Source: Candidatus Stygibacter australis
GTDB lineage: Bacteria > Cloacimonadota > Cloacimonadia > Cloacimonadales > TCS61
Length of the DNA stretch: 39,285 nucleotides
NCBI GenBank assembly: GCA_030765845.1
Contig: JAVCDJ010000124.1
Coordinates: 1 to 39,285 of the forward strand
Direction: 5' to 3'
Shown piece after piece: positions 3,516 to 19,666 of this stretch (positions within the stretch are counted from its first letter, which is position 1; the number at the start of each line of letters is the position of its first letter). The notes beneath the pieces are model-generated. The model ran no database searches, was not told where the DNA came from, and saw only the letters and a list, made by a program, of their open reading frames with translations. The translations under genes were made by a program, and so were the position numbers.

Positions 3516-6500
3516 TTTTATACTCACTATATTGTTTTTTAAAATCAGCCATGGCAGCTATCACGAGATTGACAAACACGGGAATTTTGTAAGAGGCAGA
3601 CCATCTTTTGCCGATTTTGGGGTTAAGAATACTATTAAGCCTGTATTTCAAATCACGATAAAGTTTTTCATCAATCCAGCGCCCGATAATAAATTCTTCA
3701 AGTTCCGGGAGACGCCCGGGTTTTTCGAGAAGCGATCCGGCAACAATCCGGCAATTACAGATCTTTTTGTCCTGATCAAATTCTAAACTGGCGCAGATAC
3801 TGATCCGGGTGATATTAAGCGCTTTGCGTCTGCCAAGCTGGAAGTAATGCGAGAATGATTTTGGGGGCTGAGGCAGGGGGATATTAACTGCTGTGAGAAT
3901 CTCATCCGACTCAATTGCCGTATGATAACTTTTGATGATGAAATCTTTCATGGGAATAGTACGAGTGCCTTTGGCAGAACTAAGGCTCAACTCAGCATCA
4001 TAAAAGATGAGGGGTGGAATACTATCTGCACAGGGAGCAGCATTTACTATATTCCCGCCAATTGTGGCAATATTCCTGATCTGCGTAGAACCTATCTGCG
4101 AGCAGGCAGATGCCAGCACCGGAAAATGCGTATTCACCAGCGGATTAGCGATGATCTCAGCAAAAGTTGTGGTACTGCCAATCTGGAGGGTGTCATTTTC
4201 CAGCGAGACGTATTGCAGTTCTGAGAGTGGTTTGATATTGACCACCTGATGGGTTTCTGCTGAATTGCGCATCTTGATCATCAGGTCAGTACCTCCAGCC
4301 AGAATATTATGCTTACCATCTGCGAGCAGCTTTAATGCCTGCTTTAGTGTAGTTGGCGTTACAGTTTTAGCAGAGATCACAGAGAGGCTGGAGCTGGACT
4401 CAGTTTTGCAGGCTATCATACTCTGACGTTCAGGTTTTTTGAGATTATGATTCAGAAATACCTGTTCAAGTGATAATGGCAGAGCAGCAGAGCTTACGCC
4501 CATGGCATTATAAAGAGCGTTATTGATGGCAGCAGAGATCAATTCAAAGGTGGGTTCACCAAGGCTTTTCGCTCCAAAGGGACCTGCTTTATCTGGATTC
4601 TCTATCAATATGGGAGTAATCTTAGGAATATCCTGGATTGTGGGAATAAGATAAGTATCAAAATTATCAGACAGCACTTCTCCGGCGGAAATATTAAAAT
4701 CTTCTGTGCAGGCATATCCCATACCCTGCACAACACCACCATAGATTTGGCCCTGAGCTCCCAGAAGATTAATGGTTTGACCCACATCATGAGCGGCATA
4801 AACCTGATCAACGCTTATTTTGCCAGTAAAGGAATCAACAGTAACTTCAGCAATTTGACAACCATATACATAGGTGAAATAGGCATCTCCTTTACCGGTT
4901 TCTTCTTCCCAGGATACGTCAGGAGCTTTGAACCAGCCGTAAGCCGAAAGATTAATCCCAGCCTGTAGAGCTTTTTCTACTGCTTCCTTGAAACTGAGAG
5001 CAGATTTGGGTTTTTTGCCTGACTTTGTATAGATCATACCCTCTTTCCAGATAGTATCTTTGAGCGCTTTTACTTTGAGCTCAGCTTTGATGATCTCAAA
5101 GATGTCTTCTTTCAGCTTCTGAGCAGCATCATTTATGGCATTTCCACCGGCAATTGTACCGCGTGATGCCACCGTGGGACCACCATCAGCAATAGTAGAA
5201 GTTTGTGGTGCTAGGAAAATGGCATCAGCAAGTGGAACTCCTAATATTTCACAGGCGATCTGGCACATAGTAGTCTGCAGACCCTGTCCATTTTCAGATA
5301 CAGCGGTGATAATGATCAAACTGCCGTCAGCCTGGATAGATACAATTGCAGAGGATACATCAGTACCTTCTGCACCCAGAGAACAACCACGATAGCTGCA
5401 TGCCAGCCCGATACCTTTTCTGTAGCGGGGAGGTAATTTTATAAATTCTCTGTTTGCCTGCCATTTATTAACGAAATCTGCTTTTTCTACTGCAGTATTC
5501 AAAACCTGCCGCAGCGAAACTTTATGCTCAGATAACATCTGCCCGGAGGCAGTAATACTATCCTGCTTGAAGCCATTGATGAGTCGTACCTCAAGTGGGG
5601 TGAGTTCACAATGGACAGCAATTTCATCCATCAGCGATTCCTGAGCAAAAATTATCTGGGGAGAACCAAATCCCCTGAATGCTGCTGTATAACAATTATT
5701 AGTATAAACCGACCTGATATCGGTTTCTACATGCGGGATTTCATAAGGTCCAGTAGCTTGAACTACTGAACGCCAGGTGACAAAAAATGTCTGAGACGAA
5801 TAAGCTCCACTATCAGCCAGAATGTCAATTTTCATGGCTATTATTCTACCTTCTCTTGTGAAGCCGACTTTGTAATTCATGATATATGGATGTCTTTTGT
5901 AACTTTCACGCAGAGAATTTTCACGGGAATTTGTCATCTGAACAGGCTCCCCGGTCATCTGGCATAAAAGTGCAGCACGGCAGACCATATTATTGATAAT
6001 ATCATCTTTACCACCAAAAGATCCACCCAATACTGATGGTATCACATTTATCCTGTTCAAGGGCAGGTTCATATACATTGCTGCCACTTTACGGGTAGTA
6101 TAAGGATTTTGGATTGAGCCATAGATATTGAAACCGCCAGTTGAGTGATCAGGTTCCACCGTTACCGTTTCAGGTTCTATATAAGCATGTTCCTGGAAAC
6201 CAGTGGTATATGTTCTGGTAAGTATTGCATCAGCTACTTGAAATCCAATTTTGATGTTACCCTTGCGCAGTGGATAATGATTAACAATATTCGATTTATA
6301 TTCAGGATGAATAAGTCGTGCTTTGGGAGATACTGCCTTGCGCGGGTCAGTGAGGGGTTTGTATGGCTCATATTCCACTTTAATGGCATCTGCTGCTTTG
6401 AAGGCAGCTTCCCGGCTTTCTGCAGCAACCACTGCTATCACATCTCCAGTGAAGAATACCTCATCATTCACAATTGGCAGATAATCCTGCCGGATTGGTC

Positions 6501-6735
6501 CTACCTTTTGCGCTCCGGGTATATCTTTGTAGAGAGCAATTGTCTTCACACCCGGTATCTTTTCCGCGGCAGAGGTATCTATGGAAATTATTTTGCCAGT
6601 GACAATATCTGTGTATTTGCAGGCAGCATAGAGCATGTCATTTAATTTGATATCATTACCATAAATGGCTTTACCGGTAACCTTTTGATCACCGTCAATA
6701 CGGGTAACTTCTTTTCCTATCAGGTTCATTTTCAC
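3502..6735 (-). CDS. xdhD: Fused molybdopterin + FAD subunit of an XdhD-like molybdenum hydroxylase
   Basis: A 1,077-residue protein. Residues 1 to about 760 are the xanthine-dehydrogenase molybdopterin domain: 'GGSFGGKDD' near 237, 'AFRGFGSPQ' near 352, 'SENGQGLQTT' near 485 and 'GAKSLGEPTFE' near 723, which holds the expected catalytic Glu. Residues about 785-1077 are a complete FAD domain of the CO dehydrogenase medium-chain type: 'TPTTLKQALKLL', 'AGGTDL' near 813, and 'IRNIATIGGNIVNAAPCAD'. Normally these are separate polypeptides (E. coli xdhD and ygfM) or occur in the order FeS-FAD-Mo (eukaryotic XDH). Here the order is Mo-FAD and the 2Fe-2S domain is a separate downstream gene. The protein starts 8 nt after the first hydroxylase's FAD gene ends. 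Its substrate is probably a purine; XdhD is a named member of the E. coli purine cluster, but orthology is inferred from context. No stop interrupts the linker. Confidence 0.88.
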   Translation of the reverse strand: MKMNLIGKEVTRIDGDQKVTGKAIYGNDIKLNDMLYAACKYTDIVTGKIISIDTSAAEKIPGVKTIALYKDIPGAQKVGPIRQDYLPIVNDEVFFTGDVIAVVAAESREAAFKAADAIKVEYEPYKPLTDPRKAVSPKARLIHPEYKSNIVNHYPLRKGNIKIGFQVADAILTRTYTTGFQEHAYIEPETVTVEPDHSTGGFNIYGSIQNPYTTRKVAAMYMNLPLNRINVIPSVLGGSFGGKDDIINNMVCRAALLCQMTGEPVQMTNSRENSLRESYKRHPYIMNYKVGFTREGRIIAMKIDILADSGAYSSQTFFVTWRSVVQATGPYEIPHVETDIRSVYTNNCYTAAFRGFGSPQIIFAQESLMDEIAVHCELTPLEVRLINGFKQDSITASGQMLSEHKVSLRQVLNTAVEKADFVNKWQANREFIKLPPRYRKGIGLACSYRGCSLGAEGTDVSSAIVSIQADGSLIIITAVSENGQGLQTTMCQIACEILGVPLADAIFLAPQTSTIADGGPTVASRGTIAGGNAINDAAQKLKEDIFEIIKAELKVKALKDTIWKEGMIYTKSGKKPKSALSFKEAVEKALQAGINLSAYGWFKAPDVSWEEETGKGDAYFTYVYGCQIAEVTVDSFTGKISVDQVYAAHDVGQTINLLGAQGQIYGGVVQGMGYACTEDFNISAGEVLSDNFDTYLIPTIQDIPKITPILIENPDKAGPFGAKSLGEPTFELISAAINNALYNAMGVSSAALPLSLEQVFLNHNLKKPERQSMIACKTESSSSLSVISAKTVTPTTLKQALKLLADGKHNILAGGTDLMIKMRNSAETHQVVNIKPLSELQYVSLENDTLQIGSTTTFAEIIANPLVNTHFPVLASACSQIGSTQIRNIATIGGNIVNAAPCADSIPPLIFYDAELSLSSAKGTRTIPMKDFIIKSYHTAIESDEILTAVNIPLPQPPKSFSHYFQLGRRKALNITRISICASLEFDQDKKICNCRIVAGSLLEKPGRLPELEEFIIGRWIDEKLYRDLKYRLNSILNPKIGKRWSASYKIPVFVNLVIAAMADFKKQYSEYKNDQA

Positions 6736-6743
6736 ATCCAGTT

Positions 6744-7574
6744 TTAATCAGTATTAGCAGATTCAATAAATTTCTGCAGGTAATTAAAGCACACCTGCAG
6801 GCGATATTCTTTGTCCGAGCGGAAATCACTTATGGGCGTAACATCCTTTTTTAAGGCATTCATCAGATCAGTATCATTTAGATCTTGAGAATGTAAGGTG
6901 ATATATTCTTCAACGTTGTATAAACGTCGAGGATATTCATTCAAACTACCGGCAGCAATTTTGAAATTATCTTCATATTTCACAAAGGCAAGAGCGACTT
7001 TGGCGATTGTAAGAGCAGTGCGGGAGCCAATCTTGATGTATTGCGGCTGATATTTGCAGGCGAAATTCAAGGGAATTTCAATGGCAATTATCAGTTCATC
7101 ATCTCGGAGCACGGTTTTTTTATATCCGGTATAAAATTCAGATAAGGGTACTGTCCGGGTGGTAGTTATTGATTTCAATACCAATTTGGCTTCCAATACC
7201 AGCAGTAGTGGTACAGTGTCTGCAGTTGGTGATGAATTAGCAATATTTCCGGCAAGAGTGGCAAAATTCGCTATAGGTGGTGAAGCAAAATCAATCAGCG
7301 AATCAGATAGGTATGGGCAATACTCTTTAATAATTGCTGAGCTGGAAATTTCGCTGATCGTAGTTGTGGCACCTATGATCAATTTTGTGCTGCACATATC
7401 CACACCATGCAGTTCCGGTAAATGGTTGATAAATATTATCGCTTCATCTGATATCTTACCCAGTTTAATGAGAATATTCAGATCAGAGCCTCCAGCCAGC
7501 AGCAGTTTCTTATCCGGAAGCTCAGATAATAGATTTAAGACCTCCGACAAGTTTTCTGGTTTATATACTTTCAT
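6744..7574 (-). CDS. xdhB: FAD subunit of xanthine dehydrogenase-like enzyme
   Basis: A 276-residue medium (FAD) subunit. The FAD-contacting motifs are 'LLLAGGSDLNILIK' near residue 27 and 'PPIANFATLAGNIANSSPTAD' near 105, the family's (I)xNxATxGGNIxxxSPxxD. The C-terminal CO-dehydrogenase flavoprotein segment, 'IKIGSRTALTIAKVALA', is also visible. It overlaps the 2Fe-2S gene upstream by 14 nt and ends 8 nt before the fused Mo-FAD gene. With 8046-10199 (Mo) and 7561-8049 (2Fe-2S) it completes a standard three-subunit enzyme that would pass electrons from purine hydroxylation to NAD or ferredoxin. Length matches E. coli XdhB-type subunits. It is less similar to the FAD domain of the neighbouring fused protein than a recent duplicate would be. 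Confidence 0.9.
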   Translation of the reverse strand: MKVYKPENLSEVLNLLSELPDKKLLLAGGSDLNILIKLGKISDEAIIFINHLPELHGVDMCSTKLIIGATTTISEISSSAIIKEYCPYLSDSLIDFASPPIANFATLAGNIANSSPTADTVPLLLVLEAKLVLKSITTTRTVPLSEFYTGYKKTVLRDDELIIAIEIPLNFACKYQPQYIKIGSRTALTIAKVALAFVKYEDNFKIAAGSLNEYPRRLYNVEEYITLHSQDLNDTDLMNALKKDVTPISDFRSDKEYRLQVCFNYLQKFIESANTD

Positions 7575-8049
7575 GGTTCAGCTCCTGATCAGCTAATTTC
7601 CGGCAGACTAGCTGCACCGCATCAATGATCTTACGATAACCTGTGCAACGGCAGATATTACCTGATAATGCCCATTTGATCTTATCTTCATCAAGATCAG
7701 GATTATTGGCCAGATAATGATAGGAGGTTACCAGAAAACCCGGGAAACAAAAACCGCACTGTACTGCATTTGTTTCCTGATAGCAATCTGCTATCAGTTT
7801 ACCGAGTGGTGTTTCGGAAATTCCTTCAGCAGTGATCACGCTGCCACCATCTACCTGAATGATATTTATCAGGCAACTGGTTACAGGAATATCATTTAAA
7901 AGCACTGTGCAGGCTCCGCACTCTCCTTCACCGCAGGATTCTTTTACAGAAGTCAGTTTATAGTCTTCCCTGAGCACATCTAAAAGACGTCGCATGGGAT
8001 CAGTATCAATACTGGTTTCTTTGCCATTAAGATAGAAGTTTATTTTCAT
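7561..8049 (-). CDS. 2Fe-2S subunit of xanthine dehydrogenase-like enzyme
   Basis: A 162-residue small subunit with both [2Fe-2S] sites: C39, C44, C47 and C59 (SCGEGECGACTVL ... TSC) and C98, C101, C133 and C135 (QCGFCFPGF ... NICRCTGY). The second site has FCFPGF where most relatives have FCTPGM, a mild change next to a ligand. It overlaps the Mo subunit gene by 4 nt (ATGA) and the FAD gene by 14 nt, so the three are translated together. It relays electrons from the Mo centre to the FAD. Confidence 0.92.
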   Translation of the reverse strand: MKINFYLNGKETSIDTDPMRRLLDVLREDYKLTSVKESCGEGECGACTVLLNDIPVTSCLINIIQVDGGSVITAEGISETPLGKLIADCYQETNAVQCGFCFPGFLVTSYHYLANNPDLDEDKIKWALSGNICRCTGYRKIIDAVQLVCRKLADQELNHESI

Positions 8050-10199
8050 AATGAACTCCTGTTGATCTCTTGATAAATACGCTCAGGTGTGAGTGGCAGG
8101 TCATTAATGATAACTCCTGCTGCCTGGATAAGAGCATTGCGAACAGCGGGAGCAGGATAATCCATGGGGATTTCTCCTAATCCCTTTGCCACTGCAGAAT
8201 CCGTATGGATAAATTCCACTATCATCTCAGGCATATCCTCAGTAGTGGGTAAAGTGTAATCTGTGAAACCACGAGTTCGGGGATAACCCTTTTTATAGAT
8301 ATTCTCTGTAAGTGCCCAGCCCAAAGCCTGGGTAACGCCACCATAAACCTGACCCAGAGCAATATCGTGATTGATAACTCTGCCGATGTCAAGCACATTC
8401 CAGCATTTTGTCACTTTCGCTTTATATTGCAGGGGATCATAATCAATTTCCACTACGCAGGCAGCCCAGGAAAAATCATGATAAGCAGTACCCTGATTGG
8501 TTTTATCATCAAAATCATCATTGGGGTCTGGCTTAAAGCTGAGTTCGTAGTCTTTGGGGAATAGTTCCTGATGATCCTGGATATAACCCGCCAGATCATC
8601 ACATTTCAATTCATACTTAATCTTTGCAGCAAGTTTTTGCAGTAAGCTTCCCACAATATAAATTGTCCTGGAAGCTACAGTAGGTCCGCTGTTAGGGGTT
8701 TTTCCAGTATTGGGAATTTGAACATTTACCTTTTCCAGAGGGATATTAAATTCTTCATTTACCATCTGAGCAAGCGTTGTATGAGCCCCCTGTCCCATCT
8801 CCACATTGGCCACAAATATCTGGACATTAGCATTCTTATCCAACCGCATTTTTACTTTGGACTGCAAGTCCTTTTCACCATTACCGGTGTATCCGCCACC
8901 ATGCAGGGCCATTACAAGTCCAATCCCTTTTTTATCTTTATGATCCTTGTTATATTGCTCAAACTGTCTGTGTTTATTAGCATAATCAGAAATCTCCAGT
9001 ATTCGCTGCATACATTCATGGAGATGATCTTCTTTAACTACCTGTCCTGAAGGCATTTTGTCATTTTTTCTCAGAAGATTAATTTCACGCATTTCCAGCG
9101 GAGATTTACCTATTGCTCTGGCAATATTATCAAGATGAGATTCAATGGCAAATATTGCCTGAGGAGCACCAAATCCTCTAAAAGCTCCATTGGGTGGAGT
9201 ATTGCTTTGTTGCAGAAAACCGCTGATCTCGCAGCGTGGCAGGTTATAACCTCCACCGGCATGGAGAATCCCACGATGTAACACTACAGGTGACAGGGTT
9301 TGATATGCTCCCGCATCTAAGCGATAATTGATATTTACAGCTTTTATTTTACCTGTCTGGACATCTGTATAGGAGACAATTGCCACCCGTGATGGGTGTC
9401 TTTTTGTGGTTATCAGCAGATCATCGGCTCGCTCAAGTTTTATCTTCACTGGTTTGTGGGCTTTATAGGCAAGCAGAGCTGTAATCCCAGCCAGCAGATT
9501 AGGGAAATCTTCCTTTCCGCCAAATGCTCCACCAATCCCTTCAGATGTTTCCACGATCACTTTTTCTACAGCATTCCCCATGATCACTTTCACTGCTTCT
9601 TCCACGAAAAATGGGCATTGCATGGTACCAGTGATCTTTATCTTGCTGTTCTTTTGATCATATTCTGCCAGCATCCCTTGTGGTTCCAGATAAGCCTGCT
9701 CCTGGTGCTGGGTATAAAACACCTCTTCAATGTGTTTCAGATGCTCAGGATCAACTTTAGCACCATCCTTGTGACTTATGTGCATGCACTCGCCAAACTG
9801 AAATGCCTTATCATCGAGGCAAGTATCTACGTCAGTAATTGCCATTTCCTCTTCGTACTCAATTTTGATGGCAGAAATGAAACTCATAAGTGTTTTCAAT
9901 TCAGGATGTGCTATTCCCATGATCACCTGACCATAGTGCAGCACCTCTCCTTTGGTCATAAAGGGTTGGTCTGATACCGGCTCAGGAACTATATTCTCCC
10001 CTGGAATATCTGATGCCTGCACAATAGTAAATTCCTTCAGGTCATAATCCTGGGGATAAGATATATTTTTGATCTTTCCTTTGTCTATTGTGGCATAGAG
10101 CAAATAACCATGCAGCATATCTTCCAGGGAATAATCATCCAGAAAACGGCATTTCCCGATAATTTTTGCCAGACCATCTTTTCTTGGTTTAGATTTCAT
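8046..10199 (-). CDS. xdhA: Molybdopterin subunit of xanthine dehydrogenase-like enzyme
   Basis: A 717-residue molybdenum-binding subunit. Visible motifs are 'QEQAYLEPQ' near residue 173, 'GIGGAFGGKED' near 223, 'AFRGFGAPQ' near 338 (the Arg that contacts purines in xanthine oxidase), 'EMGQGAHT' near 470 and 'KGLGEIPMD' near 672, which holds the catalytic Glu equivalent. E. coli XdhA is 752 residues, so this is a slightly short full-length subunit. Products of this family hydroxylate hypoxanthine or xanthine at carbon using water. It starts 12 nt after the threonine-synthase-like gene. An in-frame selenocysteine codon is neither seen nor needed; some relatives use a labile selenium ligand instead, which sequence cannot show here. 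Confidence 0.9.
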   Translation of the reverse strand: MKSKPRKDGLAKIIGKCRFLDDYSLEDMLHGYLLYATIDKGKIKNISYPQDYDLKEFTIVQASDIPGENIVPEPVSDQPFMTKGEVLHYGQVIMGIAHPELKTLMSFISAIKIEYEEEMAITDVDTCLDDKAFQFGECMHISHKDGAKVDPEHLKHIEEVFYTQHQEQAYLEPQGMLAEYDQKNSKIKITGTMQCPFFVEEAVKVIMGNAVEKVIVETSEGIGGAFGGKEDFPNLLAGITALLAYKAHKPVKIKLERADDLLITTKRHPSRVAIVSYTDVQTGKIKAVNINYRLDAGAYQTLSPVVLHRGILHAGGGYNLPRCEISGFLQQSNTPPNGAFRGFGAPQAIFAIESHLDNIARAIGKSPLEMREINLLRKNDKMPSGQVVKEDHLHECMQRILEISDYANKHRQFEQYNKDHKDKKGIGLVMALHGGGYTGNGEKDLQSKVKMRLDKNANVQIFVANVEMGQGAHTTLAQMVNEEFNIPLEKVNVQIPNTGKTPNSGPTVASRTIYIVGSLLQKLAAKIKYELKCDDLAGYIQDHQELFPKDYELSFKPDPNDDFDDKTNQGTAYHDFSWAACVVEIDYDPLQYKAKVTKCWNVLDIGRVINHDIALGQVYGGVTQALGWALTENIYKKGYPRTRGFTDYTLPTTEDMPEMIVEFIHTDSAVAKGLGEIPMDYPAPAVRNALIQAAGVIINDLPLTPERIYQEINRSSL

Positions 10200-10211: not shown

Positions 10212-11423
10212 TCAAATGTATCGGGATAATTTCTTTCTTAATGACGCCAGATCGGGCTCAATCGATTCCGGAATTTTGATCAGAGCTGATACTGCCTTGA
10301 TGTCTTTTAATCCAGAGCCGGTCAGTAATACCACATTCCGGCTGTTTTTTTCTAACTGATATTCTTCCATATAACTTAAATATCCGGCATAAGCTGCCGC
10401 TGCTGCGGGTTCGGCAAAAAGTCCAAATCTTGCAGCTAATATACTGCCTGCATGGAGGATGGAGTGATCTGATACCTTGATTGATTTCCCTTTGTATTTT
10501 TCCAGAAATTGCTTCGACATATAATAATTACGTGGGATTTTAACTGAAATGGAGTCTGCTATTGTTTCAGGATTTTCTGCCCTCACTGAGATGATCTCCG
10601 GGATATGATTGATTATACCCGTTTTAAGCAGGTCTTCAAAACCCTTATATATCCCGGCAATAATACATCCATCACCTACAGGTATAAATACCCTGTCAGG
10701 AAGCGTTTTTCCCATTTGACTGTAAATCTCATAAGCAGCAGTTTTTTTCCCTTCAATAGTAAAGGGGTTATAAGCAGTATTTCTATTATAGATACCCAGT
10801 TCTGCAGTAGCCTGCACAGAAAGATCAAAAGCATCATCATAGCTGCCACTTACGGGAATAATCTCTGCTCCGTACATTGCTATCTGAACCAGTTTGGCAA
10901 TTGGCGCTTTCTCTGGAACTAATATGATTATCTTCTGACCTTGAGCAGCACCAATTCCTGCCAGAGAAGAACCTGCATTACCAGTGGAAGCAGCAATAAT
11001 TGTATTGATACCTCTCTCCTTTGCTACAGCAGAGACCAGATTTGAAGCTCTATCCTTGTAAGAAAAAGTAGGATTCTGGCTATCATCTTTAAAGAGAAGT
11101 TTATGTGGCGGCTGTCTATTTTCAGGGATATTTATCTCATAGAGTGGAGTGTTGCCGACTTTCAAATATGATAATGATTGCCTTGAATTAATTGGTAATA
11201 GATCAATAAAACCGGTTTTTTCCAGATGGTTATGCAGCTCTGTTCCGTATTGATTTTTTAAGATTTCATAATCATATATAGTCTTCAATACTCCTTCTGG
11301 TGGCTGATCAGTAGTATTTTGAGCGCTGCAGGCAGGGCACAGATATTCCACTTCAGTTACAGAATAGTGCCTGCCACAATTTACGCACTCAAAAATGATC
11401 TTATCAGTTGATCCACTTTGCAT
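10212..11423 (-). CDS. Threonine synthase-like fold-type II PLP enzyme with zinc ribbon
   Basis: A 403-residue PLP enzyme of the threonine synthase group. The N-terminus carries a four-Cys zinc ribbon (C13, C16, C29, C32: FECVNCGRHY ... YLCPACS). The PLP lysine is K123 in 'NPTFSYKDRASNLV', followed by 'ASTGNAGSSLAGIGA' and a phosphate-binding glycine region 'PVGDGCIIAGIYKG'. By family it could be a real threonine synthase (O-phosphohomoserine to threonine), but it sits inside a purine-degradation operon, 8 nt after another PLP enzyme and 12 nt before a xanthine dehydrogenase subunit. No other threonine-pathway gene is nearby. An alternative is a beta-eliminating enzyme acting on a diamino or ureido amino acid from the pathway. 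Family assignment is firm; substrate is open. Confidence 0.75.
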   Translation of the reverse strand: MQSGSTDKIIFECVNCGRHYSVTEVEYLCPACSAQNTTDQPPEGVLKTIYDYEILKNQYGTELHNHLEKTGFIDLLPINSRQSLSYLKVGNTPLYEINIPENRQPPHKLLFKDDSQNPTFSYKDRASNLVSAVAKERGINTIIAASTGNAGSSLAGIGAAQGQKIIILVPEKAPIAKLVQIAMYGAEIIPVSGSYDDAFDLSVQATAELGIYNRNTAYNPFTIEGKKTAAYEIYSQMGKTLPDRVFIPVGDGCIIAGIYKGFEDLLKTGIINHIPEIISVRAENPETIADSISVKIPRNYYMSKQFLEKYKGKSIKVSDHSILHAGSILAARFGLFAEPAAAAAYAGYLSYMEEYQLEKNSRNVVLLTGSGLKDIKAVSALIKIPESIEPDLASLRKKLSRYI

Positions 11424-11431
11424 TTACATTC

Positions 11432-12901
11432 CTATTTCAGCTTTTCTAATAAACCCGTCCGGGCATTGAATTCATTTATCCTTTCATCCCATTCAAATAC
11501 TTTATTGAATTGTCTCTCCCAGTAATGCTCATCATACCACTGGGCATTAAGCTCTTCAACATCTTTGCCCTGCTGTTCTATCCAGGTAAAATATTTCAGA
11601 TTGTGCATTCTTCTGCGGTCATAATAAGAAAGCTCCAGCATATTATCTATACTTAATCCCATCAATGCCGCATTATAATCTATTGCTGCCTGAGTAAGAG
11701 AATATTCTCCCTGCTTTTCTCTGCTTTCTATTAAACGAGATCCATACATTTCCATGCTGTCTGTTGCCACGGTAAATATTATATCATTCTCATTCATTTC
11801 ATAATATTTAGCAGTCTTGATAGCCCCCATGATATTGGCAATAGAAGAAATACCTAATAATTCCAGCTTTTTGATCATCTCAGATGCCACGCCTTTATTT
11901 TGCAGGTATTCATGCCCCTTATCTTCATTAAATAATCTCATCAGGTCAATATTAGGATTATCATCAATAGCTATCACCAGATCGATATTACGCACATTCA
12001 TGATCCAGGGAACATGTTTATCGCCAATACCTTCTATCCTGTGTCCCCCATAACCATTATACAATAATGTGGGGCACTGCAAGGCTTCACCTGCACCAAC
12101 TATTATCCGGGGGAATTTTGTACGCAGATATTCTGCTGATCCCAGTGTTCCTCCTGAACCCTGCGTTAAAAATACGGAACTGAATCTGCTTTCTTCGGTT
12201 TTTATTTCATTAAACACTTCCTCCATGGCAGGTCCTGTTACTGCATAATGCCAGAGAGGATTCCCAATTTCACTGAACTGGTTCAAATTAACTATTTTAT
12301 TTCCCCGATCATGGCAAAGTTCTTTTGCCTTATCATATATTTCTTTCACATTGCTTTCACAGCCTGGAGTGGCAAAAACCTCAGCTCCCACTTCATGCAG
12401 CCAGTCAAAGCGTTCCTGACTCATCTCCTCCGGTAGTACTGCAATCGAATGACAGCCCAGCAGATAGGAATCATAAGCTCCTCCTCGACAGTAGTTGCCT
12501 GTGGAGGGCCATAAAGCTTTCTGGGTAGTGGGATCAAAATCACCAGCCACCAGTTTTTCCACCAGCGGGCCAAAAGTCGCTCCCACTTTGTGAGAACCTG
12601 TAGGGAAGTATTTACCGATCAATACTACTATCCGGGCTTTTACACCTGTCAATTCATAGGGCAATTCAATATAGTTGACTTTACCAAAACCACCACCGGT
12701 TTCTACTGGCTCATTTTTCCAGGTAAGGCGAAAAAGGTTATAGGGATGCAAATCCCATAAGCCAATATGCTTTAATTCTTCTTTAATTTTATCCGGCACA
12801 AGTTCAGGGTTACGCATCTGAGCATAAGTGGGAATGATAATATTCTTTTCAATACATCTTTGGACAGTATTTTTCAGTACTGCTTCTTTGTCTTTATTCA
12901 T
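11432..12901 (-). CDS. Fold-type II PLP-dependent lyase-like enzyme, possible stand-in for YgeX
   Basis: A 489-residue enzyme of the cysteine synthase/threonine dehydratase superfamily. The PLP lysine is K105 in 'KYFPTGSHKVGATFGPL', followed by 'WPSTGNYCRGGAYDSYLLG' (substrate loop) and the glycine-rich phosphate cup 'LTQGSGGTLGSAEYLR' near residue 246. It lies next to ygeW, where E. coli has ygeX (2,3-diaminopropionate ammonia-lyase). It is about 90 residues longer than YgeX and I see no close resemblance to it (YgeX's lysine sits in an 'RFGLNAFK' motif). By position it is the best candidate for the enzyme that releases ammonia and pyruvate from the pathway's amino acid. Family confident; reaction inferred from the operon only. 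Confidence 0.72.
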   Translation of the reverse strand: MNKDKEAVLKNTVQRCIEKNIIIPTYAQMRNPELVPDKIKEELKHIGLWDLHPYNLFRLTWKNEPVETGGGFGKVNYIELPYELTGVKARIVVLIGKYFPTGSHKVGATFGPLVEKLVAGDFDPTTQKALWPSTGNYCRGGAYDSYLLGCHSIAVLPEEMSQERFDWLHEVGAEVFATPGCESNVKEIYDKAKELCHDRGNKIVNLNQFSEIGNPLWHYAVTGPAMEEVFNEIKTEESRFSSVFLTQGSGGTLGSAEYLRTKFPRIIVGAGEALQCPTLLYNGYGGHRIEGIGDKHVPWIMNVRNIDLVIAIDDNPNIDLMRLFNEDKGHEYLQNKGVASEMIKKLELLGISSIANIMGAIKTAKYYEMNENDIIFTVATDSMEMYGSRLIESREKQGEYSLTQAAIDYNAALMGLSIDNMLELSYYDRRRMHNLKYFTWIEQQGKDVEELNAQWYDEHYWERQFNKVFEWDERINEFNARTGLLEKLK

Positions 12902-12922: not shown

Positions 12923-14113
12923 TTAATACTTTTTACGCAAGCTTCCATTTTGCAGAAGCTGCTGCAAGGCATCAACAGGTTTACGGGTTTTTGCCAACAG
13001 TATCATGGCTGCTATCACAAAAGGCTTATACCCTGCCTGCTGATATGTGTCCACCATATATTTATCAAATATTTCAGCCGATACTTCCCCGTGTTCACAA
13101 CTGACCCCGGTAATATCGGCAGGGAGGCAGTGCATATATAATGCCTTACCATCACGGGTAAGTCCCATTTTTTTCTGATTGCATTCCCAATCCATATGTT
13201 CGGCATTCATGATCAGGCATTTCTTTTCGAGCTCATCTAAACCCTTAAAATCCTTGTTCTGCATCAGTTCTGTACGGGTTCGCATAATACTCAAAGGTGC
13301 CCAGGATTTGGGGTATACTATATCTGCTCCTTCGAATGCCTGCTCCATATTATCGCAGATCATGAATTCTCCCCCGCTTTTAATTGTATTTTTCCTTGCC
13401 AGTTCTTCAATTTCGGGTAATAATTCATAACCTTTGGGGTACGCCAGATTAATCTTCATTCCCAGCCTGCTCATCAAGGCGATCAATCCCTGTGGTACAG
13501 ATAATGGTTTGCCATAGCTTGGTGAATATGCCCAACTCACAGCAATCTTTTTGCCTTTTAGTTTATCTATACCACCAAAATAATCTACCAGTTTTGACAG
13601 GTCCGCAAGAGACTGAGTAGGATGATCAAGGTCACTCTGCAGGTTTACTATAACGGGTTTTGATGCTAATATACCATTATCATATCCATATTGCACTGCT
13701 TTTGCAACCTCTCTTTGATAGCTGTCTCCCAGACCAGGATACATGTCATCCCGGATGCCTATAACCTCAGTTAGAAATGAGATCATATTAGCAGTTTCAC
13801 GTACAGTTTCACCATGAGCAATTTGAGATTTGCTCTCTTCCAGATCTTGCACGCTAAGACCCAGCAGATTTGCTGCAGATGCAAAGCTAAACCGTGTGCG
13901 CGTGGAATTATCACGGAAATTAGATACTGCCAGCCCTGACTCAAATATTTTTGCTGATATATTATTTTCAAAGAGCAATTGTAAAATCTTAGTGGTCAAA
14001 ACAGTTGCTTTGATCTCTTCCAGTGATTTTTCCCAGGTTAAAAGGAAGTTTTTACCATACATATCAGTTGTCAGATCTTTCAGCATATTTATTTCATCAT
14101 GGATTATCTTCAT
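12923..14113 (-). CDS. ygeW: YgeW-type carbamoyltransferase
   Basis: A 396-residue carbamoyltransferase of the aspartate/ornithine transcarbamoylase fold, the same length as E. coli YgeW. 'DNSTRTRFSF' (residues 68-77) is the carbamoyl-phosphate loop SxRTR. 'DLDHPTQSLADL' is the H-P-T-Q motif and 'MHCLPADITG' is the OTCase-type H-C-L-P motif. I chose the ATG at 14113 (MKIIHDEINM), because GAGGG lies 8 nt upstream. The longer frame from 14179 would overlap ygeY by 62 nt and adds residues unlike the family. In the E. coli cluster YgeW is proposed to transfer a carbamoyl group between ureido intermediates and phosphate; here it follows ygeY by 4 nt. Carbamoyl phosphate would then yield ATP if a carbamate kinase exists elsewhere, since none is in the operon. 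Confidence 0.9.
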   Translation of the reverse strand: MKIIHDEINMLKDLTTDMYGKNFLLTWEKSLEEIKATVLTTKILQLLFENNISAKIFESGLAVSNFRDNSTRTRFSFASAANLLGLSVQDLEESKSQIAHGETVRETANMISFLTEVIGIRDDMYPGLGDSYQREVAKAVQYGYDNGILASKPVIVNLQSDLDHPTQSLADLSKLVDYFGGIDKLKGKKIAVSWAYSPSYGKPLSVPQGLIALMSRLGMKINLAYPKGYELLPEIEELARKNTIKSGGEFMICDNMEQAFEGADIVYPKSWAPLSIMRTRTELMQNKDFKGLDELEKKCLIMNAEHMDWECNQKKMGLTRDGKALYMHCLPADITGVSCEHGEVSAEIFDKYMVDTYQQAGYKPFVIAAMILLAKTRKPVDALQQLLQNGSLRKKY

Positions 14114-14117
14114 ACTT

Positions 14118-15320
14118 CTATCCCTCATTAAGTTTCGCAACCAGTCCAGCATAAAATGCTGCTGCCTGCCAAAGGTCACTGATCTTCACACTCTCATTTA
14201 CGGCATGTGCCTGATCTTCATCTCCAGGACCCAGTCCCAGACATTTGATCTCAGGATGCTTGCCCATAATGAACACACAATTAGTGCTGAAAGTCCATTT
14301 ATCTATTTTGGGAGCTTTATCGAATAAATTAATATAAGCCTCTTCCGCACTTTTCAGCCATAGGGAATCTTTGGGTAATACCCAGGTTGGAAAATATTTC
14401 TCTACTGGATATATTTTACCAGTATATGCTTTTTCCTCGTATAGGGGAACCGTTATCTCAGCATCACTGATCCCTGCCCGATCACAACAGGCTCGCACTT
14501 CTGCCACAGAGCTTTCTTTATTTTCACCCACAGTAAGCCTTCTATCCAGCAGAATTCTTGCCCGGTCAGGTACAGAACACTGGCTGGCTGAATCTGATTT
14601 GAATATCGTAGTGGTAATTGTTCCTTTACCCAGGAAATCATCATCTTTTAGTTCGGCAGGTAATTTTTCGATTTCTTTCACGATAGATGCCATTTTATAA
14701 ATAGCATTAACTCCCCGCTCAGGTGCTGAACCATGGCAGGAAACGCCTTTCACTTCTACTTCTATCTCCATTCTGCCTCTATGACCACGATATATATTCA
14801 AACTCGTGGGCTCAGTGCTTACTACCAGCTCAGGCTTGATACCTTCTTCCTCAATCAGATATTCCCAGGCAATTCCATCACAATCTTCCTCCATCACAGT
14901 ACCGGTAAACAAAATTGTAAATTCTTTATTCAAACCCAGTTTCCTGATGATCTTCCCAGCTGTCAGCATGGCTGCCATGCCGCCTAACTGATCTGAGCTA
15001 CCACGTCCCCATACCCGATCCTTATCAATCATTCCTGAATGAGGTGGAAAATTCCAGTCTGCTGTATCTCCGGGATACACGGTATCTATATGAGCATCAA
15101 AAGCTATAATTCTCTTACCGTTTCCTATTTTACCAATAACACTGCCTAATCCGTCAATCCGCACATCATCAAATCCATGGTCTTCCATTTCACGCTTCAG
15201 AAGTTTTACCATATCAGCTTCTTTACCCGAAAATGATGGTGTCTGGATCATCCTGCTCAAGAGTTTTGCAGTTTCTTTTGTATAACTTTCTGCCAGATTT
15301 TTTATTGCCTTGTAATCCAT
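14118..15320 (-). CDS. ygeY: YgeY-type M20 metallo-amidohydrolase
   Basis: A 400-residue protein of the M20/ArgE/DapE group (E. coli YgeY has 403). Metal and catalytic residues are in place: H77 and D79 in 'FDAHIDT', D110 in 'WGRGSSDQLGG' (bridging), E144/E145 in 'TVMEEDCDG', Glu near 171 in 'STEPTSLN' and a late His in 'DQAHAVNE'. The dimerisation-domain motif 'RGRMEIEVEVKGVSCHGSAPERG' is also present. Family enzymes hydrolyse N-acyl or N-carbamoyl amino acids. In purine clusters YgeY is assigned to removal of a carbamoyl-type group before the PLP lyase step. It starts 12 nt after ygfK and ends 4 nt before ygeW. Intact and full length. Confidence 0.92.
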   Translation of the reverse strand: MDYKAIKNLAESYTKETAKLLSRMIQTPSFSGKEADMVKLLKREMEDHGFDDVRIDGLGSVIGKIGNGKRIIAFDAHIDTVYPGDTADWNFPPHSGMIDKDRVWGRGSSDQLGGMAAMLTAGKIIRKLGLNKEFTILFTGTVMEEDCDGIAWEYLIEEEGIKPELVVSTEPTSLNIYRGHRGRMEIEVEVKGVSCHGSAPERGVNAIYKMASIVKEIEKLPAELKDDDFLGKGTITTTIFKSDSASQCSVPDRARILLDRRLTVGENKESSVAEVRACCDRAGISDAEITVPLYEEKAYTGKIYPVEKYFPTWVLPKDSLWLKSAEEAYINLFDKAPKIDKWTFSTNCVFIMGKHPEIKCLGLGPGDEDQAHAVNESVKISDLWQAAAFYAGLVAKLNEG

Positions 15321-15332
15321 ATAATGTCCCTT

Positions 15333-18300
15333 CTATAATTTAATTAGATATCCATATTTTTCATTAATTGATTTGATCACTTCCACGGTTTCGGGAGAGA
15401 TGAACACCTCTTTCCCTGTTTTATCTTTCACCATAAATCCATCCTCATCAATAAACTCACCTTCTACTTCAAAATAACGTACAAGACCTTGATTATCACC
15501 GCTGAAATACACCCCATTATTATTGCTTTCGGCAAAATCTTCTGCTGAACTGAATAGATTGAATTTATCTTTATAAGGCTTCCCCTGATAGGGGCAGAAG
15601 GTCTCACAATTTCCGCATTCATTACATAATTTATCTAAATGGATGATCTGAAAATGATCTAACAATCGAGTTGAATTCACCCTGATAGCCACATTAGCCC
15701 GATTGGGACATACTTCCACGCATTTATTGCACAGATAATCGCATTTCAAGCAGCGCTCTGTTTCCAGCTTGATATCATCAGCTACTGGTTTTATCTTTCC
15801 TTTCTCTTTATGTAATTTATATATCTCGCTTTCAATTTCCAGGTAAGATTTTTCCACTTGATCAGTCTTATATTCTATCTTTTCTTTCTTCAAAATCTGC
15901 TCAGCAGCTTCAATCCCATCTGCCATTGACTGAACCACCGAAGAAGGCCCTCGCCTGGCATCTCCAGCTATATACACATTTTTGAGATTTGTTACACATT
16001 CATTTTTGGCGTCAATATGATTAGCCTTCAAATAATCCTGATCAACAATTTCACCAATTGCGGAAATCACCAGATCAGCAGGAATCAGAACCACCGGCTC
16101 AGCAGCAGGTATTGCCTGCCTGCGTCCAGAATTATCGATCTCACCCAATTTCATCGGCTGACAGATCAATTCTCCATTTTTATATGCCACTGGCTGTAAT
16201 AGTTCTCTGAATTCCACTCCATCTTTCAAAGCATTTTCAAATTCTTCTTTATCTGCCGGCATCTCAGCTTCTGTTCTGCGATAAACCAGGCTCACATTTT
16301 TCACTCCACCGCGCCTGATTGCTGCCCGGGCACTATCCATGGCAGAATTACCTCCACCTGTAACTACAATATTCTGAATTTCCTTCATGGGAAACTCATT
16401 TCGTTTATTTTTCCGCAAAAATTCCAGAGCATGGAAAACTTTATCATTATCACCCTTCAGTTTCAAATTCCTGCTCTTTCCTGCTCCAATTGCTAATATC
16501 ACATATTTATTTCCAGCTGAGAGCAATTCGTCGACCCCCACCTTTGAATTATAAATGATTTCCACACCACAACGTATGAGCATTTCCAGATCTTTATCAA
16601 TCACTTCTTCCGGTAGCCTGAAACCAGGTATCACCTGTCTTACCAATCCCCCGGCAGATGACTCCTTTTCATATATTTTCACCTGCATTCCCTGTCTTCG
16701 TAAATATAATGCTGCCGAAAGTCCTGCTGGCCCCGCTCCGATTATCGCCACGCTTGCTCCATTAATTTCACTGGCTGTTAAGCTCTCAAGATATTCATAA
16801 TATCCTTCCGCTGCTGCTTCCTTTTTTATTTCTCTGATTGATAACGGATATTCATAATCCACACGCACGCATTTTGTTTGACAGGGCTGTTCACATATAT
16901 AACCAGTAATATGGGGCAGAGCATTTCTTAAGTGAATAACCTGCAATGCTTCAGCATATTTTTCTTCCGCAACCAGTCTGATATATTCTGGAATATCTTG
17001 CTCGATTGGGCAACCTTTCTGACAGCCAGCTCCCGCACAGTCATAAATAGGTAACTTATTATTATTCTTTACACTGACGTTGAACTTACCATATCCATAA
17101 TCCTTGTTTACGGCACGATCAGCGAGTTCTGACAGCACTTGTTGATCTATCTGCTCCGGTAAAGAACTGTCATTGAGAATTTCACACAATTGAGCTATTC
17201 TTTTATATCCCCCCGGTTTCAGTAGATTTGTAGCCATTGTTACGGGTCTAATACCACTTGCAGCAATATCCTTGATATTCTCAAATTCTGCTCCTCCACA
17301 ATAAGAAATATTTAACTTCTGACCAAAATCCAGATGTAGTTTGTGTGCCAGATTGATAGTTAATGGAAAAAGTGCTTTCCCGCTCATATACATTTCGTTT
17401 CCTGGTAAAACCTGCTTAAGATTCTTTACTGGCAAAGTGTTTGAGAGCTTTACTCCAAACATCCTGTCCTGCTTCTCTGCGTAGGCCATAAGAGCAGACA
17501 CAATTTCTTTTGCTGCCCCATATTGCAGATCATGCGCAAAAGTATCTGGCTTCAATTCCAGATTAAACCCCAATTTCTGCATTGTTTCATGCACATATTC
17601 ATATCCTAGTAAAGTTGGATTCAATTTCAGAAATGTATGCAGTTTCTTTTCTCCCAGCAAATATCGGCAAATTGCTTCCTGATCTTCTGGAGGACAGCCA
17701 TGCATCGTCGATAGCGTTATTGAATTTGAGATTTGTGAAGGTATATTTATAATCTTATCACTCCATTTTTCCATGTCTAGTCGTTTACTGACAAAGTCTC
17801 TCAGCTCCCGCACGCATTGATTGAAATATGACTCATTACCTGCATCAACCAGGTTATTGATAAATTTATCAATTTTGGGAGACTTGATCCCCTTTAGATC
17901 ATAGCCCACACTCATATTAAAGATGAAACCTTCATCCTGTTCAGATAATTCCAGAAAATCCCTCAAAAAGTGCATTATAACCCAGGCTTTCACATATTCC
18001 TGATATGCCTCTTCTACGCTCAATTCTGTGCTCCACTCTGTATTATAACCTTCATATTCTGCTTCTATACAGGGCTTTTCTATATCAAGTTCATCCAGGA
18101 TCTGCACTGTTTTCAGTTCAAAAAATCTTGAACCGGTCAAATATGCTGAAATTATATTTTGAGCACACTGCGTATGAGGTCCTGCTGCTGGTCCTAATAT
18201 AGTCTCATAATCATGTCCCCCTGAACTAAAGTGATTCTTTCCCCGATTACGGAAAAAACTGGCATCATTTATCCCAAAAATGCTTCTCTGTTTTTCATAT

Positions 18301-18359
18301 TCGCTGCATATCCAGTTCAACAAATCCCCGAAAACGACTGGTTTCATCACCATACTCAT
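15333..18359 (-). CDS. ygfK: YgfK-type multi-domain flavin/iron-sulfur oxidoreductase
   Basis: A 1,008-residue protein, close to E. coli YgfK (1,032). Residues about 1-400 form a dihydroorotate/dihydropyrimidine dehydrogenase-like barrel ('STMHGCPPEDQ', 'FGVKLSNTLPV', 'ISYCGGAEFENIKDIAASGI'). Near 440 comes 'CAGAGCQKGCPIEQDIPEYI', the glutamate-synthase small-subunit-type Fe-S entry. Near 540 is the FAD site 'IIGAGPAGLSAALYLRRQG', then an NADPH-type site 'VVTGGGNSAMDSARAAIRRG' and 'YIAGDARRGPSSVVQSMADG'. The C-terminal Cys clusters are near 870 (CLKCDYLCNKCVEVCP) and 912 (CNECGNCETFCP). The name 'putative selenate reductase' used for this family is historical. The layout resembles dihydropyrimidine dehydrogenase and suits reduction or oxidation of a ring intermediate in purine breakdown. 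Its ATG overlaps the ssnA stop by one base (TGATG). Confidence 0.92.
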   Translation of the reverse strand: MSMVMKPVVFGDLLNWICSEYEKQRSIFGINDASFFRNRGKNHFSSGGHDYETILGPAAGPHTQCAQNIISAYLTGSRFFELKTVQILDELDIEKPCIEAEYEGYNTEWSTELSVEEAYQEYVKAWVIMHFLRDFLELSEQDEGFIFNMSVGYDLKGIKSPKIDKFINNLVDAGNESYFNQCVRELRDFVSKRLDMEKWSDKIINIPSQISNSITLSTMHGCPPEDQEAICRYLLGEKKLHTFLKLNPTLLGYEYVHETMQKLGFNLELKPDTFAHDLQYGAAKEIVSALMAYAEKQDRMFGVKLSNTLPVKNLKQVLPGNEMYMSGKALFPLTINLAHKLHLDFGQKLNISYCGGAEFENIKDIAASGIRPVTMATNLLKPGGYKRIAQLCEILNDSSLPEQIDQQVLSELADRAVNKDYGYGKFNVSVKNNNKLPIYDCAGAGCQKGCPIEQDIPEYIRLVAEEKYAEALQVIHLRNALPHITGYICEQPCQTKCVRVDYEYPLSIREIKKEAAAEGYYEYLESLTASEINGASVAIIGAGPAGLSAALYLRRQGMQVKIYEKESSAGGLVRQVIPGFRLPEEVIDKDLEMLIRCGVEIIYNSKVGVDELLSAGNKYVILAIGAGKSRNLKLKGDNDKVFHALEFLRKNKRNEFPMKEIQNIVVTGGGNSAMDSARAAIRRGGVKNVSLVYRRTEAEMPADKEEFENALKDGVEFRELLQPVAYKNGELICQPMKLGEIDNSGRRQAIPAAEPVVLIPADLVISAIGEIVDQDYLKANHIDAKNECVTNLKNVYIAGDARRGPSSVVQSMADGIEAAEQILKKEKIEYKTDQVEKSYLEIESEIYKLHKEKGKIKPVADDIKLETERCLKCDYLCNKCVEVCPNRANVAIRVNSTRLLDHFQIIHLDKLCNECGNCETFCPYQGKPYKDKFNLFSSAEDFAESNNNGVYFSGDNQGLVRYFEVEGEFIDEDGFMVKDKTGKEVFISPETVEVIKSINEKYGYLIKL

Positions 18360-19666
18360 CAGTTTTTCTCCTTCAATTCTATAAATCTTTCAAATAATCC
18401 CTTCGATATTTCTCCACTACGCTCCTTCAAATCTGCGTAGGGATCCAAAGTAACCTGATAATTATCCAGCAGTATATTGTCACCTTTTATCACATATTGA
18501 GCTCGGGATTCTGTGATCCCAAAAATAAAATGACCCAGAAAACTATCACTGTCAAACGGTGTAGCAGGAATATAATCAAAGATTGCCAGGTCTGCTGCAT
18601 CATCTTCCATAATCCCCAGATCATAACCATATGCCTGCTTCAATGCATAAGAATTCTTTAGAAGACCATTCATCTCAGAATAACCTTCATCAGCACTACC
18701 ATTTTGATATTTGCAGAAAATATAGGAATTTTTATATGATTTCATAATATTTGAACTCATCCCGTCTGTACCCACTGTCACTCTGATCTCCCTGACAGTA
18801 AGATCATGGATATTTGCCACATTCAGACCGTTATTCTGATTTGAATCCACTGCCTGAACTATCCATATATCTTCGTCATGCAATTTCTTCCAATCAGTTT
18901 TAGTCAGATTACTGCAATGTACCAGCAGTGAATTCTTTCTCAGTAATCCGTGTTTTTTTAATCGCTCAATTATAAATAGATTATATTTATCCATTGTTTC
19001 TCTCATATCAAGAATATCCTCAGATACATGTATATGGATTGGTAGATCATCTGAACTTTCAGCAATTTTTTGCAAGCTTTCATCGCTGAGTGTAAAAGAA
19101 GCATGCATCCCCAGCATTCCCTGCACAGAACTGTCCTTATGTTTTCGGGTAAATTCCAGATTCTCTCTTAACGATTCCTCAAAAACCTCCTTGCCATTCC
19201 GGTCGCTCATCTCAAATGCCAGCACACCTTGAATACCATAAGATTCAAAAACTTCTGCCATCAGATCCAATGATCCACTGATATAGGAAGCAGATATATG
19301 ATGATCAAATATCGTAGTTACACCCTGCTTCAGGCAGTCTTCCATTGTAAGTACTGTGGAAAGCTGTACACTTTCCTTATCAAGTGCTCTATCCAATGTC
19401 CACCACAAATTCTTAAGATTTCCCAGAAAATCACCAAATGGCACTTTGCAGGGTATGCCTTTGGATAGTGTAGAATATATGTGATGATGAGCATTTACTA
19501 ATCCTGGCATGATTATCTTACCCTCACAATCAATTTCCCTGTCCACATTATCATTTCCTGCTGTATATTTCACTTTGCCATCAATCACATATAGATCCTG
19601 CTTCTTAACTTCATATCCCACTTCGTCGGGATAGATCACATAACCACCCTTAATCAGATAATTCAT
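18359..19666 (-). CDS. ssnA: SsnA-type aminohydrolase
   Basis: A 435-residue amidohydrolase-superfamily protein (E. coli SsnA has 442) of the guanine deaminase/chlorohydrolase branch. Metal ligands: H60 and H62 in 'GLVNAHHHIYSTLSKG', a His in 'LPIHIHVSED', a His in 'LLVHCSNL' and an Asp in 'VTVGTDGMSSN'. The C-terminal 'DDAADLAIFDYIP' strand matches the small beta domain typical of these enzymes. It is a named member of the E. coli purine/urate cluster and is expected to deaminate or open a purine-derived ring. It overlaps hyuA by 17 nt and ygfK by 1 nt. Intact. Confidence 0.9.
   Translation of the reverse strand: MNYLIKGGYVIYPDEVGYEVKKQDLYVIDGKVKYTAGNDNVDREIDCEGKIIMPGLVNAHHHIYSTLSKGIPCKVPFGDFLGNLKNLWWTLDRALDKESVQLSTVLTMEDCLKQGVTTIFDHHISASYISGSLDLMAEVFESYGIQGVLAFEMSDRNGKEVFEESLRENLEFTRKHKDSSVQGMLGMHASFTLSDESLQKIAESSDDLPIHIHVSEDILDMRETMDKYNLFIIERLKKHGLLRKNSLLVHCSNLTKTDWKKLHDEDIWIVQAVDSNQNNGLNVANIHDLTVREIRVTVGTDGMSSNIMKSYKNSYIFCKYQNGSADEGYSEMNGLLKNSYALKQAYGYDLGIMEDDAADLAIFDYIPATPFDSDSFLGHFIFGITESRAQYVIKGDNILLDNYQVTLDPYADLKERSGEISKGLFERFIELKEKN

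Follow-up and report, generated by a model that had tools for sequence, protein, structure and literature searches.

The stretch of DNA analysed here, referred to as the window, comprises 39,285 nucleotides of Candidatus Stygibacter australis, a bacterium of the phylum Cloacimonadota (assembly GCA_030765845.1, contig JAVCDJ010000124.1, here C124, of a genome of 3.8 Mb in 278 contigs that is 95% complete). It contains an operon of 14 genes, which extends on a single strand from position 21005 down to 1624 with intergenic gaps of -26 to +21 bases, calculated with the likely start of YgeW at 14113 instead of the listed 14179. The genes are arranged in the order HyuA-like, SsnA-like, YgfK, YgeY, YgeW, PLP489, TSL403, a trio of xanthine-dehydrogenase-type (XDH-type) subunits, a second XDH-type enzyme, MobA-like and XdhC-like. 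The set that defines the reductive pathway of uric acid breakdown (YgfK, SsnA, HyuA, YgeW/UacY, YgeY and an XDH homologue) is thus present together, with YgfK, YgeY and YgeW above their NCBIfam cut-offs and the SsnA-, HyuA- and XDH-like genes below them. As described in excerpts of recent work on E. coli and C. difficile, where the pathway has been established, its last enzyme is the 2,3-diaminopropionate ammonia-lyase YgeX (PMC12507026; PMC12990295). Next to YgeW, the window instead encodes two pyridoxal-phosphate (PLP) enzymes of fold-type II, TSL403 and PLP489, which are 8 bases apart, with PLP489 separated from YgeW by 21 bases. Judging from sequence and gene context, TSL403 is probably a non-orthologous replacement of YgeX, a reading to which we assign a probability of about 0.6. 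The operon consists of the following genes:

10212..11423, minus strand: TSL403, 403 residues, threonine-synthase-like PLP enzyme of fold-type II with a zinc ribbon and K123, proposed to replace YgeX
11432..12901, minus strand: PLP489, 489 residues, cysteine-synthase-like PLP enzyme of fold-type II with K105, extended at its N- and C-terminus, linked to the pathway
12923..14113, minus strand: YgeW carbamoyltransferase (624 bits, cut-off 453; the listed open reading frame begins with GTG at 14179, the start of the family fits ATG at 14113)
14118..15320, minus strand: YgeY M20 hydrolase (529 bits, cut-off 321)
15333..18359, minus strand: YgfK reductase (1250 bits, cut-off 835)
18359..19666, minus strand: SsnA-like aminohydrolase (358 bits, below the cut-off of 444)
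19650..21005, minus strand: cyclic amidohydrolase at the HyuA position (allantoinase/dihydropyrimidinase-type models, below cut-offs)
8046..10199, minus strand: xanthine-dehydrogenase-type molybdopterin subunit (NCBIfam match below cut-off)
7561..8049, minus strand: [2Fe-2S] subunit (Pfam)
6744..7574, minus strand: flavin adenine dinucleotide (FAD)-binding subunit (Pfam)
3502..6735, minus strand: second molybdopterin subunit, fused to an FAD-binding domain (Pfam)
3042..3527, minus strand: second [2Fe-2S] subunit (Pfam)
2449..3042, minus strand: MobA-like cytidylyltransferase (Pfam)
1624..2448, minus strand: XdhC-like maturation protein (Pfam)

A preliminary description of the window, made from the sequence alone, had already delineated the two open frames, which are confirmed on the minus strand, and pointed to K105 (in SHK) and K123 (in SYKDR), which by motif are the Schiff-base lysines and which we find to be invariant in 49/49 aligned PLP489 and 32/32 aligned TSL403 sequences. 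It had also remarked that YgeX is not visible, and this absence extends to the entire genome, where a search with E. coli YgeX (1e-8; genome 95% complete) gave no match. The PALP family occurs in three places genome-wide, namely TSL403 and PLP489, both above the cut-off for Pfam PALP (PF00291), and a class II threonine synthase of 456 residues on contig C70, which groups with E. coli ThrC in our tree. Since neither the PALP search nor the search with E. coli YgeX revealed such a gene, we have rejected the presence of YgeX elsewhere in the genome. The preliminary description had regarded this, together with a placement of TSL403 among housekeeping threonine synthases, as the outcome that would speak against its proposal, and the latter placement was not found either.

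The phylogenetic comparison with YgeX, threonine synthases and dehydratases, proposed at that stage as a check, was carried out with 86 fold-type II proteins, including 34 rows of TSL403, 12 of YgeX and 9 of PLP489, where the TSL403 rows were picked by similarity, for part of them with the motifs KDRA and GDG as an additional criterion. In the resulting tree, TSL403 forms one clade of its own (support 99/97) beside the threonine synthases, while YgeX constitutes another (100/100), which includes neither TSL403 nor PLP489 and is located on the opposite side with dehydratases and cysteine synthases. TSL403 stays below the cut-offs of the threonine-synthase models, with scores of 159.1 for TIGR00260 (cut-off 167.1), 196.4 for NF004170 (421) and 194.3 for NF006050 (303). 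The best dehydratase model reaches 99.8 bits (cut-off 331), with threonine/serine dehydratases residing in a different clade, and the YgeX model NF006058 (cut-off 276 bits) does not appear in the list of its 25 best families. Threonine synthases are also closest to its predicted structure (mean predicted local distance difference test score, pLDDT, of 92.7), with a Z-score of 41.4 and a root mean square deviation of 2.3 over 356 residues to the Arabidopsis enzyme (2c2b). The cysteines of the zinc ribbon, as assigned from the sequence, are C13, C16, C29 and C32, of which C13, C16 and C29 are conserved to at least 90%. In a loop following residue ~279, we find 4 residues in the window's genus (three genomes, with the window and loci L035 and L036) compared to 21 or 22 in 65/68 measured relatives.

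TSL403 and the threonine synthases also differ in residues of the active site. All 34 TSL403 sequences differ from five class I threonine synthases by carrying Ala126, Ala150, Arg214, Lys226, Asp251, Asp290 and Ser291. Conversely, the arginine found at position 222 (in window numbering) in 5/5 threonine synthases and in four solved bacterial enzymes is present in 0/34 TSL403, where it is replaced by Thr, Met or Leu. Ala150, Asp251 and Asp290 are each found in 34/34 TSL403, whereas threonine synthases contain Thr/Met at position 150 and Asn/Ser at 251. In the threonine synthase of Thermus, residues at the Arg222/Thr150/Asn251-type positions presumably hold the phosphate of O-phosphohomoserine. 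The loss of this site together with the gain of Asp251 would fit a substrate with a positively charged distal group, such as diaminopropionate. Both PLP enzymes differ from YgeX in a further motif, which is STGN in 32/32 TSL403 and 49/49 PLP489 rows and TDGN in 12/12 YgeX, with a threonine in place of YgeX Asp120. In YgeX, Lys77, Asp120 and Asp189 are retained by all 12 copies, also where PLP489 is adjacent.

To define the distribution of both genes, we have searched 124 genomes of Cloacimonadota with cut-offs of 1e-30 for PLP489 and 1e-40 for TSL403. PLP489 was detected in 86/124, TSL403 in 89/124 and both in 80/124 genomes, corresponding to a Fisher value of 9e-15, which is not a true probability since the genomes are related. 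Each of the 45 genomes in which YgeW exceeds its cut-off contains PLP489, and 44 of them contain TSL403 and two YgeX; in the 45th (G063), a TSL403 is present in locus L225. Although the E. coli YgeX query matches 12/124 genomes, a true YgeX (40-49% identity over at least 326 residues) is found in seven, and the remaining five matches, of 26-29% over about 155 residues, coincide with TSL403. We read the gene neighbourhoods of every TSL403 genome (89), of 68 out of 86 genomes with PLP489 and of six out of seven YgeX loci. In 68/89 cases, a core purine gene is found at a distance of no more than 10 kb from TSL403, and this number increases to 87/89 if XDH-type genes are included, and equivalent values for PLP489 are 60/68 and 64/68, with several of the loci that lack purine neighbours residing on short contigs. 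By contrast, no purine or XDH-type gene was found within 10 kb of a true YgeX in the six loci examined (L089-L094), and YgeX proteins of this phylum, being remote from purine genes, may serve another pathway. The order of the cluster is variable, with HyuA-SsnA-YgfK-YgeY-YgeW-PLP489-TSL403 in the window's genus, SsnA-YgeY-TSL403-HyuA-Mo enzyme-YgeW-PLP489 in family f10 (Mo, molybdenum) and, in family f13, PLP489 next to HyuA and TSL403 on a different contig, yet both genes remain part of it.

A second set of 393 genomes encompasses the Bacteroidota order to which genome G142 belongs. It contains 97 genomes with PLP489, 91 with TSL403, 86 with both and 17 with YgeX. Where both PLP enzymes are encoded, they are at most 7 kb apart in 57/86 cases. 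PLP489 is found without TSL403 in 11 genomes, four with YgeX and seven with neither lyase. In three of them (G142, G388 and G462), YgeX directly follows PLP489 in the slot that is usually occupied by TSL403, and the flanking genes are those of TSL403 clusters, with YgfK upstream in G142 and a Mo enzyme downstream in G388 and G462. Since YgeX takes the place of TSL403 after PLP489, it would substitute for TSL403 and not for PLP489. In G273, PLP489 and YgeX are both present but apart, whereas G517 combines YgeX with HyuA, SsnA and a Mo enzyme and contains no PLP489, indicating that a YgeX cluster can dispense with the latter. Another 12 YgeX genomes of the order have neither TSL403 nor PLP489, and most of their YgeX stretches are devoid of purine genes. 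In locus L306 of genome G184 (4429-8169), PLP489 is flanked by XdhC and by an 8-oxoguanine deaminase that exceeds its cut-off, in a genome that lacks TSL403 and YgeX. The recurrence of the pair across the 124 Cloacimonadota and 393 Bacteroidota-order genomes led us to reject a local accident as origin of the arrangement.

Beyond these groups, a scan for the PLP489 pattern identified at least 80 named loci in Bacteroidota, Chloroflexota (Anaerolineae), Spirochaetota, Neomarinimicrobiota, Aminicenantes, Caldisericota, Bipolaricaulota, Elusimicrobia and others. Among the 80 loci listed, the stretch includes a core purine or XDH-type gene in 61, TSL403 in 36 and YgeX in two. The restriction to purine clusters, which the preliminary description had named as support for its proposal, applies to TSL403 within the phylum and in most instances to PLP489. 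For 22 genomes with a PLP489 stretch lacking TSL403, we extended the search for the PALP family and both lyases to the whole genome. A TSL403 with signature motifs is found elsewhere in 16 of them, including G125, which also has YgeX, and G142 contains YgeX only. Neither TSL403 nor YgeX was detected in the five genomes G126, G127, G130, G143 and G144, the first being a complete chromosome of an Aminicenantes with two copies of PLP489, and PLP489 can therefore exist without either lyase. Outside the purine and XDH-type families, no neighbour family is shared by more than four of 77 clustered PLP489 loci. Single neighbours include a carbamate kinase and a YgeY-like hydrolase. In two Aminicenantes loci (L131, 8752-9912; L133, 8748-9908), PLP489 is preceded by a gene of 387 residues that appears amidinotransferase-like by eye, with the copy in L131 lacking an NCBIfam match, and in Euphemobacter frigidus (L127, 11774-15118) it is followed by genes that by eye resemble the H and P subunits of the glycine-cleavage system.

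PLP489 itself is a distant relative of cysteine synthases. Its score for the cysteine-synthase model TIGR01139 is 108.2 bits (cut-off 351) and for the YgeX model NF006058 21.3 bits (cut-off 276), and its nine rows form a long branch within the cysteine-synthase group of the tree (100/100). The protein is extended by about 70 residues at the N-terminus and 100 at the C-terminus and contains invariant CRGG and EGIG-KH-PW motifs. Its structural model (pLDDT 91.7) matches β-cyanoalanine synthase, O-acetylserine sulfhydrylase, hydrogen-sulfide-producing enzymes and O-ureidoserine synthase with Z-scores of 33-38 (maximum 37.8), and since many cysteine-synthase relatives differ by a few Z units, the structure does not permit naming a substrate. 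As PLP489 is retained where YgeX is present, it is not simply the lyase, and it is best described as a genuine second enzyme of cysteine-synthase type that is linked to the pathway.

The preferred reading, in which TSL403 replaces YgeX, thus combines its separate clade, the loss of the arginine, its linkage to purine genes and the exchange of the two lyases in one slot in three genomes, and of the two options raised in the preliminary description, a replacement or a pair acting in two steps, the former is the one favoured by our data, for TSL403. The operon would accordingly encode a reductive uric acid pathway with another last enzyme, which might have been recruited from the threonine-synthase branch and, after losing the arginine, have gained Asp251 that could hold the cationic β-amino group. 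Diaminopropionate released by YgeY would be bound at K123 of TSL403, where elimination of the β-amine would generate aminoacrylate, which would be hydrolyzed to pyruvate and ammonia. As TSL403 lacks the equivalent of YgeX Asp120, we predict it to accept only L-diaminopropionate; this stereochemistry, as well as substrate and product, are what we infer for the enzyme. PLP489 would act in the same pathway as a separate cysteine-synthase-like protein and not as terminal lyase. Several observations weigh against this proposal. Genomes within a single phylum or order are not independent, and Fisher values overstate the association. The clear exchanges in the slot amount to three, with two of them in close relatives, and G233 harbors TSL403 in addition to a YgeX whose stretch is devoid of purine neighbours. 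The choice of rows by the motifs KDRA and GDG renders residues 126 and 251-252 conserved by selection, although it does not affect 150, 214, 222, 226 and 290. For the role of the threonine-synthase residues in phosphate binding, a literature search provided no source. Finally, the TSL403 of the window itself carries a genus-specific deletion of 17 residues in a loop.

Other assignments of the two enzymes have to be weighed against the same data. An ordinary or second threonine synthase would agree with the best named models and structures of TSL403, but this option is highly improbable and already contradicted by the missed cut-offs, the separate clade, the lost Arg222, the location in purine clusters and the class II enzyme encoded on C70, and we have consequently rejected TSL403 as housekeeping threonine synthase. 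We also find it rather doubtful that the pair jointly replaces YgeX, with PLP489 converting D-diaminopropionate, or else a different isomer or a derivative, for an L-specific TSL403. Such a two-step process fits the co-occurrence of both genes: 80 genomes of Cloacimonadota encode the two together, against totals of 86 for PLP489 and 89 for TSL403, and 86 genomes do so in the Bacteroidota order, against totals of 97 and 91. It also fits the absence of PLP489 from purine clusters that contain YgeX alone (G517 and E. coli). It would further agree with excerpts of published work, according to which YgeX handles both isomers (PMC12507026), its Asp120 is potentially catalytic (PMC4000059), and R-configured intermediates have been proposed (PMC12990295). 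In TSL403 and PLP489, we find threonine instead of this aspartate. However, PLP489 is retained beside YgeX copies with an intact Asp120, where a racemase should be superfluous, and in genomes with neither lyase found, including the complete Aminicenantes chromosome, and its nearest solved relatives are β-replacing enzymes and not racemases. Our estimate reflects that PLP489 follows TSL403 far more closely than it follows YgeX, yet is kept beside YgeX and in the presence of neither. A broader version, which we advance only tentatively, views PLP489 and TSL403 as a module that would replace YgeX with new chemistry in Cloacimonadota, Bacteroidota, Chloroflexota, Spirochaetota, Neomarinimicrobiota and others, so that the end of the pathway would differ from E. 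coli. Equally tentative is the step ascribed to PLP489 in this module, either the inversion of an isomer or a β-replacement that keeps the C3 unit or ureido nitrogen, with TSL403 completing the process.

Alternatively, PLP489 could be the diaminopropionate lyase and TSL403 have another job, such as a side reaction on serine or threonine. Cysteine-synthase relatives are capable of β-eliminations, PLP489 is located directly after YgeW in 32 Cloacimonadota loci and it is better conserved than TSL403 (72% versus 51% mean column identity). Still, it is TSL403 and not PLP489 that YgeX replaces, PLP489 persists beside YgeX, and in many loci TSL403 adjoins YgeY, the protein that makes diaminopropionate, which together render this assignment quite improbable. 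Similarly unlikely is that PLP489 has no part in diaminopropionate breakdown and serves the cluster's molybdenum hydroxylases instead, supplying their Mo centre, for instance, with sulfide or selenide released from cysteine or selenocysteine. The XDH subunits that accompany XdhC, PLP489 and 8-oxoguanine deaminase in the G184 locus, in a genome with neither lyase, would be in line with this role, as are the position of PLP489 before MobA in 16 Cloacimonadota loci and the hydrogen-sulfide-producing enzymes among its structural matches. It is less compatible with the tight association with TSL403, where PLP489 is present in 86/91 genomes of the Bacteroidota order, and with the restriction of XDH-type genes to 41 of the 80 PLP489 stretches listed.

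Two features of the investigated loci concern other proteins. In 12 Cloacimonadota loci (L038, L041, L042, L045, L065, L066, L073, L074, L075, L078, L178 and L193), we find two or three divergent YgeW-like carbamoyltransferases in tandem together with a YqeA-type carbamate kinase, and 10/12 lack YgeY in the stretch. In these, both ureido groups may leave phosphorolytically, which would double the gain of carbamoyl phosphate. The window further contains two long consecutive open frames at 28726-33516 (1596 residues) and 33990-38765 (1591 residues), located after a hybrid-cluster (prismane) gene at 26316-27977.

The operon represents a variation on an established pathway, probably ending in an enzyme other than YgeX. 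The reductive uric acid pathway, which is of medical interest in relation to gout, has only been worked out in 2025, and excerpts of this work list variants with UacX or a putative F420 enzyme in place of YgfK and with UacY in place of YgeW (PMC12507026). A swap of the last lyase was not found in the excerpts of the literature on this pathway that we consulted, nor was a pairing of the lyase with threonine synthase, and ygeX does not occur in PMC11448449. Many uncultured anaerobes appear to end the breakdown of uric acid with an enzyme of the threonine-synthase family instead of YgeX, plus a partner. This bears on surveys, which in the excerpts considered have used Pfam PF00291 as a sign of YgeX (PMC12507026) or have marked the pathway by ygeX (PMC12542679). 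With ygeX as marker, clusters containing TSL403 would be missed, while with PALP they would be counted but the different enzyme would be hidden. A distinct terminal lyase would extend the range of the pathway to further phyla and define a new enzyme family. It also makes the question of D- or L-diaminopropionate testable, since TSL403 has no aspartate at the position of YgeX Asp120.

Compared to proteins of known structure, TSL403 shares the fold and core motifs of threonine synthases (2c2b, 1uim and 6cgq) with 32-36% identity to the bacterial chains, but it misses the cut-offs of their models, is replaced at positions 222, 150 and 251, and resides in purine clusters. PLP489 resembles cysteine synthase, cystathionine β-synthase and β-cyanoalanine synthase in its fold, its catalytic lysine, the STGN and GSAGT loops and a DS near the pyridine nitrogen, whereas its scores far below cut-offs, its long branch, the extensions and the CRGG and EGIG-KH-PW motifs set it apart. 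YgeX (PDB 4d9g) is, like TSL403, a fold-type II PLP enzyme in the same slot of the pathway with, as we propose, the same reaction, although it belongs to another branch of the superfamily and carries TDGN with Asp120 where TSL403 contains STGN in addition to its zinc ribbon. The uric acid clusters of E. coli and C. difficile (XdhD, YgfK or UacX, SsnA, HyuA, YgeW or UacY, YgeY and YgeX) share with the window an XDH-type enzyme, YgfK, SsnA-like, HyuA-like, YgeY and YgeW proteins in a single operon, and they differ in its last enzyme, which is YgeX in the former, with TSL403 and PLP489 found instead in the latter.

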